The position numbers were made by a program, and so were the translations under genes. A stretch of 59,333 nucleotides of DNA. It comes from an uncultured Geobacteraceae bacterium. Its GTDB lineage: Bacteria > Desulfobacterota > Desulfuromonadia > Geobacterales > Pseudopelobacteraceae. Under the pieces are notes generated by a model, which ran no database searches, was not told the DNA's origin, and saw nothing but the letters and a program-made list of their open reading frames with translations. The stretch is taken from positions 1-59,333 of the forward strand of contig CAIYDX010000390.1 in NCBI GenBank assembly GCA_903925005.1, in the 5' to 3' direction. This document shows, in pieces, positions 47,866 through 53,289 of this stretch (position 1 is the stretch's first letter; each line of letters starts with the position of its first letter).

Positions 47866-48594
47866 CTATTGCTGGCGTTTGTTGCGAGCGGAAAGTCTGA
47901 TGGTGACCGGGGTGTCCCGAAGTACGGAAACCTGCTTTTCAGGAATCCGTAAATTTTTCCGGTACTCTTTTCCTTTTTGTAACTGGGTCGCATCGATCTC
48001 TTCGGTTGCAATCGATACAACTTTTGACACCTGACTGGCTGGTCCCTCGATATCGACGGAGGTCGGCTCGCAGGTGATGTGCAACGATGACTGCCCAGGC
48101 GGCAATCTGCCTTTGAGGACCGCTTTTACCGGCACACTTTTGCGCAGTTTATTCTCTGCCGAAACTCGAATGCTTGATGGCGATACCGATGTTATGACCA
48201 TGCCTGATGGCGTGGCGATGTCGGCATGATTGACTCTGATCGCGGTGGTTCCTTCTGCAATTCCGGAGGCATCGATTTCGGCGGTCAGGTCGAGCTTGGA
48301 AGGTGTAGGAGCCAGGCTTGACATGGCTTTTATCTGGACAGTCACCTCTTCAGGGAGTGTCTGGAGCAGGAAGAGCCTGTCAGGAACGCCATGTAGACGC
48401 ACTGGCGCCGTTACGGTGGTGATCTGTCCCTGGCGGGTCGTAATCAGCCCCCAGAAAACGCAGACGGCAAGCAGCAGCGAAACCTTCGGGAGCAGATTTG
48501 AGAAAACACGCTGCCGCAGGGTGATGCTCGGTTTCTTGACGTCACATCTCAATAGATCGTCCAGTGCCATGATCAGTTCGGTGGGGGTGTTCAT
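47866..48594 (-). CDS. cdaR: CdaR-like YbbR-domain protein, in frame with the DAC core upstream
   Basis: A 242-residue coding segment if initiated at ATG 48594. A membrane helix (about 37-53) is followed by YbbR-type repeats (e.g. TAPVRLHGVPDRLFLLQTLP, and PVKAVLKGRLPPGQSS). In other bacteria CdaR (YbbR) binds and regulates CdaA. Two features suggest the true protein starts further upstream: the frame is open for 77 codons before this ATG and encodes the DAC catalytic core, and the first 36 residues look like a CdaA tail rather than a CdaR start. A stand-alone CdaR can still be made from this ATG. Confidence 0.75.
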   Translation of the reverse strand: MNTPTELIMALDDLLRCDVKKPSITLRQRVFSNLLPKVSLLLAVCVFWGLITTRQGQITTVTAPVRLHGVPDRLFLLQTLPEEVTVQIKAMSSLAPTPSKLDLTAEIDASGIAEGTTAIRVNHADIATPSGMVITSVSPSSIRVSAENKLRKSVPVKAVLKGRLPPGQSSLHITCEPTSVDIEGPASQVSKVVSIATEEIDATQLQKGKEYRKNLRIPEKQVSVLRDTPVTIRLSARNKRQQ

Positions 48595-48825
48595 ACGGCG
48601 AAATTTCCCGGCGGTTACCAGCGTTATCTCGCCCCGTTCTTCCGATATGGCGATAATGACCGCGTCGCTCCGTTCCGATAGCCCGAGAGCTGCCCGGTGA
48701 CGGGTGCCCAGATGCTGGGGAACATCCGTGCTGACTGAGAGCGGCAGGTGGCAGGCCGCTTTTTCAATCCTGCCGTTATTGATGAGCGCGGCGCCATCAT
48801 GGAACGGCGCGCCATTATAAAAGAT
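48595..48825 (-). pseudogene. Diadenylate cyclase catalytic core cut off by an amber codon
   Basis: Seventy-seven codons continue the CdaA frame directly after the TAG at 48826-48828. They encode IFYNGAPFHDGAALINN (the DGA motif) and GTRHRAALGLSERSD (the RHR motif), both needed for c-di-AMP synthesis, and then flow without a stop into the CdaR segment. There is no ATG, GTG or TTG start with a ribosome site in this stretch. Without stop-codon readthrough, or a sequence error at one base, this core is not made. Confidence 0.85.
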
Positions 48826-49284
48826 CTATTCCAGCATTTGCGGTGAAATTTCACTGTTAATCAGTACCCCGTTTGTCATCAGGTCGTTCAGTGGCTCATT
48901 GCCTTGAAAAACAATCAGGGCTCCGATCCTGTTGGCAGCCATCCGGAATAATGTCTCGGCAATATCCTGAAATTGGCTATGTTGCGTTTCCTGACGACTA
49001 TCGAGTATATGCCGAAGGAGGCTGAAGCGATACAGAGCTTGCCGGATCTCGTTTTGAAATACGACGATTATCAAGATGATAAGGACGGTGCCGAGTTCCT
49101 GAAGCACCCAGCTGGTCATATACAGATTCAGGAACCGGGTAGCAAAATAGATAAGGGTTACTACACCCAGACCCAAAAGCACCTGAATGGCCCGCGTTCC
49201 ACGAAACCAGGAGTAGAGCTGGTAAAGCAGAAAAGTCATGATCAATATGTCGGCAATATCCTGAATACGAATGTTAGGGATCAC
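48826..49284 (-). CDS. cdaA: Diadenylate cyclase, N-terminal part ending at an in-frame TAG
   Basis: A 152-residue product. The GTG at 49284 has an AGGAGA site and gives the typical start PNIRIQDIADILIM. Three membrane helices (about 8-26, 33-53, 60-80) are followed by a helix (FQNEIRQALYRFSLLRHIL) and the start of the DAC domain (RMAANRIGALIVFQGNEPL), ending ISPQMLE. CdaA makes c-di-AMP from two ATP. As written the protein lacks the catalytic DGA and RHR motifs, which follow in the same frame after the stop. A complete protein with readthrough would be about 472 residues, including a fused CdaR region. Confidence 0.85.
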   Translation of the reverse strand: MIPNIRIQDIADILIMTFLLYQLYSWFRGTRAIQVLLGLGVVTLIYFATRFLNLYMTSWVLQELGTVLIILIIVVFQNEIRQALYRFSLLRHILDSRQETQHSQFQDIAETLFRMAANRIGALIVFQGNEPLNDLMTNGVLINSEISPQMLE

Positions 49285-49403
49285 TTTTACTGCGTCTCCT
49301 GAAGTAAATAAGGTGGTTTTTTTCTGGTTAATGTCCGGCAAAATGTGCTACATAGACACGCATTTTTATAGCACTTAAATTAGTCAAAAGGTAGTGGAAA
49401 CGA

Positions 49404-50289: not shown

Positions 50290-50892
50290 TCACCCGTTCA
50301 GCAGTTTCACCGTCGCTCTGCCGTCGACATAATAGTCGATGATATTCAGGCAGCCATAAGTCTGCTCTATATTGAACATCCCGGCCAGCGGGGCGCCGAT
50401 GGCATTCAGCAGCACAATGCGATTGACGCCGCCATGCCCGACCACCAGCAGTTCCTGCCCTTTATGCCGCTCCACTATTTCGTTGATAACCGGAATGACC
50501 CGCGCCTCGACATCCAGCAGGTTTTCTCCCTGCGGCACCCGAAAATTGACAAGGTCCGACAGCCGCGCCTGCCACTCGTCCGGCCAGTCAGAGCGGATTT
50601 TATCCCAGGTCAGTCCTTCCCAAACCCCGATATTCAACTCTCGCAGTTCAGGGCGAGCGACAGGCTCAATGCCGAACGCCTGACAGATGATGTCGGCTCC
50701 GGTCGTACAGCGCGACAGATCGCTTGTGTAGCAGGCCGAAATCTTTGCATCCGTCAGGCGCTCTTTGAGGCTATGATACTGCTCTACACCGTAATCGGTC
50801 AGCGCGACATCGGTCTGTCCGTTGTAGCGGGGTTGATCGAAACCGGCCACTTGGCCGTGGCGTATCAGATATATGCGGGTATGAGGTGTCAT
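50290..50892 (-). CDS. cobC: Alpha-ribazole phosphatase (histidine phosphatase family)
   Basis: A 200-residue phosphatase. The catalytic RHG is in IRHGQVAGF, the second His in VVGHGGVNR, and the acid in RELNIGVWEGL. CobC removes the 5-phosphate from alpha-ribazole phosphate or the cobamide. The name is supported by cobS directly upstream with a 27-bp gap. Last gene of a same-strand run that begins with the methyltransferase-DUF2284 gene. Confidence 0.85.
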   Translation of the reverse strand: MTPHTRIYLIRHGQVAGFDQPRYNGQTDVALTDYGVEQYHSLKERLTDAKISACYTSDLSRCTTGADIICQAFGIEPVARPELRELNIGVWEGLTWDKIRSDWPDEWQARLSDLVNFRVPQGENLLDVEARVIPVINEIVERHKGQELLVVGHGGVNRIVLLNAIGAPLAGMFNIEQTYGCLNIIDYYVDGRATVKLLNG

Positions 50893-50919
50893 AGAAATTC
50901 TCCGTGGAAATCCGACTGG

Positions 50920-51666
50920 CTAGAACATGGCCAGCGGCAGGGCCGAAATAACGACCAGAGCCAAAATCTCATTGAGTTCGTTGATGCAGCCGATCGTATC
51001 GCCGGTCAGACCGTCAAGTTTGTTCAGAAAAAATGCGCGGCCGGCAAAAGTTAGCAGGCAGACCGCAGCCAGTACAATTATTCCTTTGACAGCCAACAGG
51101 TAAAAACCTGCGGAAGCCGTCGTGACAAAAGCCAGAAAAAGTGCCGTTCCGCCGCTTTCCTGGGCGAACAGGGCTCCGAGTCCATCCTGTCTGGCATGGC
51201 GGGCGCCGGTCATGGTCAGTACCTGCCCAAAGCGGGCCATGGCGGGGAATAACAATAATGCCTGCCATTTGAGCTCAGTCGGTACCGCCGCCAGTGCCTG
51301 CCACTTGAGCAGAATACCCAATACCAGCCCGACCGCGCCTATTGCGCCGACCTGTGAATCCTTCATCACTGCCAAAAAACGTTCCCGTCCCCCTCTGGCA
51401 GCCAAACCGTCGCAGACATCCGCCAGGCCGTCCAGATGCAGGGCGCCGGTAATCAGAACAGCAAGGGTTATCAACAGCGCATCGCAGAGCGGGCGGGCGA
51501 GCCATGGAGCGATCAGCCAGTTGGCCCCTGCCAGCAGTGCCCCGATAATCAGCCCCACGAGCGGGAAAAAAGCGGTGGACCGCCCCAGGTCTTCCTTGTC
51601 GCAGCGGACGGTGACCGGGAGCGGGATGATGGTCAGAAATTGAAAGGCGATTAGAATAAGGCGCAT
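50920..51666 (-). CDS. cobS: Adenosylcobinamide-GDP ribazoletransferase (cobalamin synthase)
   Basis: A 248-residue membrane enzyme that joins the lower ligand nucleotide to adenosylcobinamide-GDP. The N terminus FQFLTIIPLP and the motif GALHLDGLADVCDGLAA (Asp-rich metal site) are diagnostic; several helices follow. It lies 71 bases after the radical SAM stop. CobU and CobT are not in the window. Confidence 0.92.
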   Translation of the reverse strand: MRLILIAFQFLTIIPLPVTVRCDKEDLGRSTAFFPLVGLIIGALLAGANWLIAPWLARPLCDALLITLAVLITGALHLDGLADVCDGLAARGGRERFLAVMKDSQVGAIGAVGLVLGILLKWQALAAVPTELKWQALLLFPAMARFGQVLTMTGARHARQDGLGALFAQESGGTALFLAFVTTASAGFYLLAVKGIIVLAAVCLLTFAGRAFFLNKLDGLTGDTIGCINELNEILALVVISALPLAMF

Positions 51667-51737: not shown

Positions 51738-53204
51738 TCAAACGGCAAGAGCGCTTTGTACCAGCGTCACATACTCCCGCTCAACCATTTCGATCTGTTG
51801 CGGTATCGTGGAATGAGCGGCACGGCAGAGTGCTTGAAAGACCTCCTTCAGAAGCAAATTGATATGGCTCCCGCCGTGGTGTTCGGCGACAGTACGGTTC
51901 TGCCGAATTGCGTCCATGCCGCTGAAATAGTGCGCTGTCAGTCGTCCCATGGCCGAACAGACCAGACCAACCCGGTCGTCCCGGAATCGGTATCCGGCCT
52001 CGAACGGAAGGCGTTCGTCCAACAATAACCGCCCATCCTGCGAGAAACGATCCCAGGCTGACGAGCCGTGCAGCACAATCTGGTTATGGTAGAGAAGGTT
52101 GGCGGTCAGCTCATGTTCGTCCAGCAGCCCCAGCTCGTCGAGGAAGGTGTAGTTCTCCTCCAGTTCGGCAAGGGTGGAGTCCGGCTCGAACATTATAAAA
52201 CCGAGATTCAGCTTTATTCCGCTCTCTCTGATAATTTGCACTCCGCTGCGGATCTGATCGGTATTGGTCCGTTTGCCGATCCGGTTGAGCACCGAATCGC
52301 ACCCCGACTCGATGCCGAGAAAGATGGAGGTTGCACCATAATCGGCCAGGGTCGCGATCAATCCTGCATTGATGCTGTCCACCCTGGTCTCGAATCCGAA
52401 GGGGAGCCCGAAGTGCTTCGCCATGCGGCCGATCTGTTCAACCCGTTTGCACTCCTTTTCTCCTTGGCCGATAAAGGAGGGATCTATAAAATACAGACTC
52501 TTGATATCGCGCCGCGCCAGGCGGATCTCCAGTTCCCGCTCCAGCGAGGCAAGATCCCGTGCCCGGCGGCGGCTGCAACCGTAGTAGCGGTGGATGAAGC
52601 AGAAGCTGCAGTCGCCGTAGCAGCCGCGGCTGGCGGCGATATTCAAGGTGGTGTAGCCGCAGTTGGCTCCCACATCATTCGGAACCGGCAGCCGCGCCAG
52701 ATCGGTGACCAGCGGCCGCGGTTCGAGCGCTTCATCGCGCCGGGCAACGCCGGGGAGCGGTGCAATCGTGCGTCGTTCGCCAAAGAGCGGCAACAGTTCG
52801 GCCAGCGTCTCCTCGAACTCTCCGGCCAGGATGAAGTCAAGCTGCGTGGCGAACTGCAGGAGGCGGTGGCAGGAGAGGGTGGGAAACAGGCCGAAGGCTC
52901 CTAAAGGTGTGCTGCTGCCCTGGCGCAGCAGATCGAGGACATTGCGGACAAGCTCTTCATGCCCCCAGGAGTAGACCCAGTGAAAGAGAACTATGTTGGC
53001 TGATTCGGCCATTATGCGGGCTGCGATGACGGTTGCATCCCAGTTCCCGGAGCTGAAATCCAGATGGGCAGTGTCCCATCCTGCCCGGCGGGCAACGGCC
53101 AGCGCATAGCCGCTGTTCAGGCTGGCCGACAGCGGCGCGTTGGCTACATCGTTGTAATGCTCGATAGTCAGAGGACGGGGATTTTCGACGATCACTATTT
53201 TCAT
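51738..53204 (-). CDS. B12-binding radical SAM protein of the cobamide gene run
   Basis: A 488-residue enzyme. The start at 53204 gives MKIVIVENPRPLTIEHYNDV and no strong ribosome site is seen. A cobalamin-binding domain (about 1-150, VVALFHWVYSWGHEEL-like NIVLFHWVYSWGHEELV) precedes the radical SAM core, whose cluster motif is CYGDCSFC near 200 and whose later segments include GFETRVDSIN and GIESGCDSVLNRIGKRTN. It is encoded between dedA and cobS on the same strand. B12-binding radical SAM enzymes commonly methylate carbon; BzaD of the anaerobic benzimidazole pathway is recalled to be of this type, but this gene has not been tested against it. Confidence 0.85.
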   Translation of the reverse strand: MKIVIVENPRPLTIEHYNDVANAPLSASLNSGYALAVARRAGWDTAHLDFSSGNWDATVIAARIMAESANIVLFHWVYSWGHEELVRNVLDLLRQGSSTPLGAFGLFPTLSCHRLLQFATQLDFILAGEFEETLAELLPLFGERRTIAPLPGVARRDEALEPRPLVTDLARLPVPNDVGANCGYTTLNIAASRGCYGDCSFCFIHRYYGCSRRRARDLASLERELEIRLARRDIKSLYFIDPSFIGQGEKECKRVEQIGRMAKHFGLPFGFETRVDSINAGLIATLADYGATSIFLGIESGCDSVLNRIGKRTNTDQIRSGVQIIRESGIKLNLGFIMFEPDSTLAELEENYTFLDELGLLDEHELTANLLYHNQIVLHGSSAWDRFSQDGRLLLDERLPFEAGYRFRDDRVGLVCSAMGRLTAHYFSGMDAIRQNRTVAEHHGGSHINLLLKEVFQALCRAAHSTIPQQIEMVEREYVTLVQSALAV

Positions 53205-53289
53205 GGGATTGGTTATCGGGGATATGAGCGGTGTTGTCAATACGCAAAGGCCTCCAATGTCACGTTGGATTTCTTCAGCCGCCAATCCG

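Follow-up and report, generated by a model that had tools for sequence, protein, structure and literature searches.

Organisation of the locus

The window, by which we mean the whole 59,333-nucleotide stretch analysed, is contig C390 of the draft assembly of an uncultured Geobacteraceae bacterium (5,416,205 bases, 419 contigs, 94.88% complete, 6.16% contaminated). Its minus strand carries a gene in which a membrane domain, a diadenylate cyclase (DAC) domain and a YbbR domain follow one another in a single frame, interrupted by an amber codon (Table 1).

Table 1 Features of the interrupted cyclase gene in the window.
Feature	Position	Strand	Remark
DAC-YbbR fusion gene, TAG-interrupted	47866..49284	-	472 codons plus terminal TAG; single unbroken frame in relatives
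AGGAG, probable ribosome binding site	49296..49300	-	11 nt before the GTG start; presumed role
CdaA_N membrane domain (PF19293)	49045..49281	-	profile match
DAC domain (PF02457), TAG-split	48604..48954	-	profile match
In-frame TAG	48826..48828	-	codon 153 of the fusion gene, counting from GTG 49284
DGA motif	48790..48798	-	3' of the stop
RHR motif	48694..48702	-	3' of the stop
First in-frame ATG past the stop	48592..48594	-	78 codons on, beyond the catalytic motifs
YbbR domain (PF07949)	47893..48135	-	profile match

The plus-strand letters at the stop are CTA, which is TAG on the minus strand, and the frame reads ISPQMLE, the stop, IFYNGAPFHDGAALINN and, further on, GTRHRAALG, all as the earlier note had described. 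Ahead of the TAG, the product takes in the membrane domain and the beginning of the DAC domain but lacks DGA and RHR: both motifs follow the TAG here, whereas in the aligned relatives they stand in one uninterrupted product. The 77 codons after the stop had been given as free of further stops. This is correct, but since DAC and YbbR are fused in this gene the open frame in fact extends over 319 codons, into the YbbR domain, and ends with the terminal TAG at 47866; the 77 codons span the distance from the stop to the first ATG in frame (48594). There is no ATG, GTG or TTG in frame between the stop and that codon and no strong Shine-Dalgarno sequence upstream of it, as judged by eye, in agreement with the earlier view that translation finds no good start soon after the stop.

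With X placed at the stop, the interrupted frame scores above the cut-offs of three Pfam models along its length, CdaA_N (39.4 bits, cut-off 23.8), DAC (130.2 bits, cut-off 27) and YbbR, and of the NCBI CdaA model TIGR00159 (199 bits, cut-off 188.8). These matches bear out the assignment of the gene to CdaA as far as its cyclase part is concerned; the whole is a CdaA_N-DAC-YbbR fusion rather than a plain cdaA. From sequence, the most likely start is the GTG at 49284, preceded by AGGAG, because several relatives have stops in this frame immediately upstream of it (L008, L011, L018 and L031; L034, L035, L043, L044, L047 and L054, some of them from the same genomes; and others of the order). The window itself has no closing stop there, and the TTG at 49341 is a possible alternative.

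The fusion gene is flanked by a LysM-NlpC/P60 gene and ubiE and does not form part of a cdaA-cdaR-glmM operon; glmM adjoins the other DAC gene of the genome, described below. Near ubiE, positions 50290-51666 hold two cobalamin genes over their cut-offs, alpha-ribazole phosphatase (TIGR03162) and CobS (TIGR00317), followed by an ORF (51738-53285) for a radical SAM protein that scores under every listed NCBI cut-off.

Conservation of the gene and of the interrupted codon

A DAC match was found in 140 of the 141 genomes of the order, that of the window included. The loci returned for 29 of 38 matched relatives could be aligned over the stop, and all 29 have Ser at its position; so do all 26 named MAG loci, a set that overlaps with the first. 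The alignment with relatives that had been proposed as a check thus returns a sense codon, and no aligned relative has a stop at it. The 26 named relatives, found by protein match, are MAGs labelled Geobacter sp., Geobacteraceae, Desulfuromonadaceae, Desulfuromonadales, Deltaproteobacteria or Proteobacteria, the best being 90% identical. More distant sequences can have Ala, Asn or Thr at the site, so the residue is not catalytic. In four relatives whose proteins were aligned over the stop, 17-18 of the 20 residues before it and 17-19 of the 20 after it are identical to the window's. With all three domains recognised and the flanks this well conserved, the frame across the stop is more than chance.

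We considered whether the two halves function separately, with translation restarting at ATG 48594 to give a YbbR protein alongside the truncated membrane part. There is an in-frame ATG ahead of the YbbR part, and in Firmicutes the YbbR protein CdaR is separate from CdaA, beside which it is encoded (PMC8573169, PMC6368335). Against this, the ATG has no strong ribosome binding site as judged by eye, the truncated part lacks both catalytic motifs, and most relatives keep the single frame; we regard this as the least probable of the readings considered here.

Elsewhere in the order, no genome with the gene has a stop within the region coding for the membrane and DAC parts, frame breaks in three genomes (G041, G074 and G116) being counted apart. 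Stops do occur within the gene match in 11 other genomes (G008, G019, G021, G037, G043, G098, G102, G105, G106, G111 and G127), all upstream of the start. When a full-length fusion gene (L005:1333-2748) served as the query, stops were listed in ten intact-looking genomes: five re-align at query residues 384, 384, 394, 394 and 471, and the other five were not re-found within the alignment. We read these stops as probable natural ends of YbbR tails that vary in length.

UAG as a terminator in this genome

We asked whether UAG might be a sense codon at this site, with a suppressor tRNA, pyrrolysine or programmed read-through allowing the full-length enzyme to be made. The well preserved frame past the stop is the sole positive point for this. 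UAG terminates 79 of 323 stop-to-stop frames of 300 or more codons (663 kb of the genome, antisense frames kept), compared with 47 of 241 in G016 and 23 of 90 in other relatives, and it is also the terminator of the fusion gene itself. We then compared conserved loci: 848 ORFs of relatives were tried, 616 were dropped for less than 60% identity or less than 70% cover, and the 232 that matched well define 180 distinct loci covering 204 kb, within 910 kb of the genome. A clear internal stop with well conserved flanks was found at one of the 180, the window gene, and no frameshift was flagged at any of them. Six further rows contained a stop, each with at most 8 of 20 identities on its weaker side; the one on contig C26 probably lies in an N-terminal extension. 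In the reverse control, the genome's ORFs against G016 (168 loci), seven rows contained a stop and none exceeded 11 of 20 identities on both sides. A clear in-frame stop is seen at one of these conserved loci rather than at several, and relatives do not keep a stop at the site.

The best score against the PylS model is 28.4 bits, under the cut-off of 178.15, and none of the 34 distinct tRNAs read from 35 matches has a CUA anticodon. This set is incomplete, as it lacks some common tRNAs (for Phe, Lys and Ile, among others), which leaves room for a CUA tRNA; a pattern search for one returned five places, none of them a CUA tRNA, with a pattern whose form would find 22 of the 34 tRNAs read. The RNA 3' of the stop folds no better than shuffled sequences (z -0.49). 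We also scanned codon usage for coding frames that a single stop divides. Six places in the genome were flagged, and since the focal gene was not among them we consider the scan too insensitive to count. Among the tRNA genes, the 3' part of tRNA-Arg(TCT) is repeated 6.7 kb downstream (G000:C152:16452 and 23157; L145, L201), an arrangement like that at the termini of integrated elements.

Read-through or recoding, one of three options that the earlier note had offered, therefore finds no support in the common use of UAG as a terminator, the PylS score, the incomplete tRNA set or the conserved loci, and we consider it highly unlikely. A variant in which a real UAG is partly read through, so that the cell has, besides the constant enzyme from the glmM locus, a low and adjustable level of the full-length DAC-YbbR cyclase, would be slightly less probable still.

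Sequence divergence after the stop

The nonsynonymous divergence (dN) of the window gene from eight near relatives was determined by segment (Table 2). For the DAC part after the stop, four of the eight window values lie slightly above the top of the relatives' range. Of the alignment columns that do not vary among 17 relatives, the window departs from one per segment, which is inside the leave-one-out range.

Table 2 dN by segment of the fusion gene.
Segment	Window vs 8 relatives	Among relatives	Window mean / relatives' mean
Before the stop	0.035-0.053	0.003-0.055	1.35
DAC part after the stop	0.060-0.108	0.009-0.097	1.45
YbbR part	0.127-0.194	0.034-0.223	1.06

These values indicate no clear relaxation of constraint after the stop; a slight relaxation is possible, and a very recent null would be expected to show none. 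The lack of clear decay means that the change is either very recent or a base error. In the latter case the TAG would be a base-call, consensus or strain-mixing error and the gene whole in living cells. Besides the undecayed sequence, the draft state and contamination of the assembly favour this explanation, as does the position of the window's stop: no other genome of the order has one in the membrane and DAC part. Errors of this kind are infrequent here, however, as the single clear stop and the absence of frameshifts among the 180 conserved loci argue that the assembly is not noisy at large. We hold a base error to be a serious possibility, somewhat short of an even chance.

A second diadenylate cyclase gene

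The search for a second dac gene, suggested as a further check, was positive: the genome contains two DAC genes, the other being on contig C205 (L001, G000:C205). It has 262 codons without a stop, includes DGA and RHR, and scores as CdaA (TIGR00159, 197.9 bits, cut-off 188.8). The gene order there is folP (dihydropteroate synthase gene)-dac-glmM, with folP and glmM over their NCBI cut-offs. Its matches within the genus are 71-87% identical, the best being in G100, the genome that also matches the fusion gene most closely (90%). This argues that C205 is from the same organism, despite the contamination figure. We also detected a gene with a 7TMR-HDED domain (PF07697), without stops in the match, a domain that we take to mark PgpH-type c-di-AMP phosphodiesterases. 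The genome returned no match to the c-di-AMP riboswitch (RF00379) at an E-value of 0.001, and the only Rfam match over its gathering score in the window is one tRNA.

Loss of c-di-AMP synthesis, one of the outcomes offered earlier for this locus, we reject in view of the second, uninterrupted DAC gene: a null at the window gene does not equal lost c-di-AMP synthesis, and the earlier assessment was overstated in this respect.

Most genomes of the order have two cyclase types. Assigned by best E-value and with the window's genome included, each type is found in 135 of the 141 genomes, and 130 of the 141 have both the C205-like and the YbbR-fused gene. The six genomes in which the fusion gene was not found (G044, G045, G051, G053, G085 and G096) also have no good match to its neighbour ubiE, which suggests absent sequence rather than gene loss.

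Frame breaks in other genomes

Including the window, the fusion gene is broken in 4 of 135 genomes. In G116, a single-contig genome, it occupies two frames, and the change from one to the other falls within seven consecutive G lying between the DAC and YbbR parts (L225). In G074 it is likewise in two frames, with one base fewer than a close relative at the DGA motif (L224), and the TGA listed for this genome goes with that break. In G041 about 30 codons are missing and the frame changes (L243, L247).

Two control genes, the paralogue in 135 genomes and ubiE in the 133 genomes where it matches well, showed no interior break, base-by-base reading having covered part of the control rows. Eight paralogue rows contained a stop, four at residues 255-260 of 262 and four that were not re-found. 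The ubiE of G094 contains runs of N and cannot be judged, and the short control matches lie at contig ends (G109, G105) or begin at contig starts (G002, G041). As the fusion gene contributes 0.488 of all compared codons, the chance of all four breaks falling in it is 0.057, and of three out of three, leaving out the window, which was chosen for its break, 0.116. This is a weak hint that the fusion copy may be the more expendable of the two; the other breaks may themselves be sequencing slips.

Interpretation

Of the three options offered for the stop, namely read-through, recent loss and base error, which were the right set to consider, recent loss of this gene and base error are the likely pair. 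Most simply, the stop is really present in the sequence and has a commonplace origin, either a recent null mutation in one of the genome's two cyclase genes or an incorrect base.

To the first of these, a very recent null tolerated thanks to the uninterrupted second gene, we assign an even chance. If the base is real, a single-base nonsense change would have arisen in a DAC-YbbR gene that is intact in other respects and was under constraint until recently. If UAG terminates here, the product would end after 152 codons, and no active cyclase would come from the window copy because translation would stop before DGA and RHR; the YbbR part would be lacking too. The null would be very recent and as yet undecayed, and it would be tolerated through the second diadenylate cyclase gene (folP-dac-glmM), presumably with enough c-di-AMP made by that enzyme. 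Two points weigh against the null: one base in a draft assembly with this level of contamination can be wrong, and a fixed null should decay in time, of which there is no clear sign.

The stop codon itself matters little, as nothing tested points to recoding and lost c-di-AMP synthesis is not implied. What may be worth keeping is the setting: most genomes of the order have two cyclase types, one C205-like (beside folP and glmM in this genome) and one fused to YbbR, and cells could perhaps do without the fused copy more readily than without the other.

Comparison with known systems

The cdaA-cdaR-glmM trio is known as an operon from Firmicutes. Here this cyclase-regulator-glmM trio looks, from the gene arrangement, to be split over two loci. 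A literature search for diadenylate cyclase and YbbR in Geobacter found nothing; the fusion may be in print elsewhere, and we claim no novelty for it.

The window gene resembles CdaA (DacA; PF19293 and PF02457, TIGR00159) in its membrane domain, its DAC domain and its DGA and RHR motifs, and solved CdaA chains are among its sequence matches. It differs from CdaA in sharing one frame with YbbR, in not lying beside glmM and in being interrupted by TAG. With CdaR (YbbR, PF07949), the CdaA partner of Firmicutes, it has one YbbR stretch in common, which in the window gene forms the C-terminal part of the cyclase protein itself. The C205 gene shares with the window gene the DAC domain, both motifs and a TIGR00159 score over the cut-off; unlike it, the C205 gene is short (262 codons), without YbbR, unmatched by the CdaA_N Pfam model and uninterrupted. 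Compared with an ordinary nonsense allele or assembly error, finally, the window gene is alike in having one stop in an otherwise whole gene, and no tested feature sets it apart.
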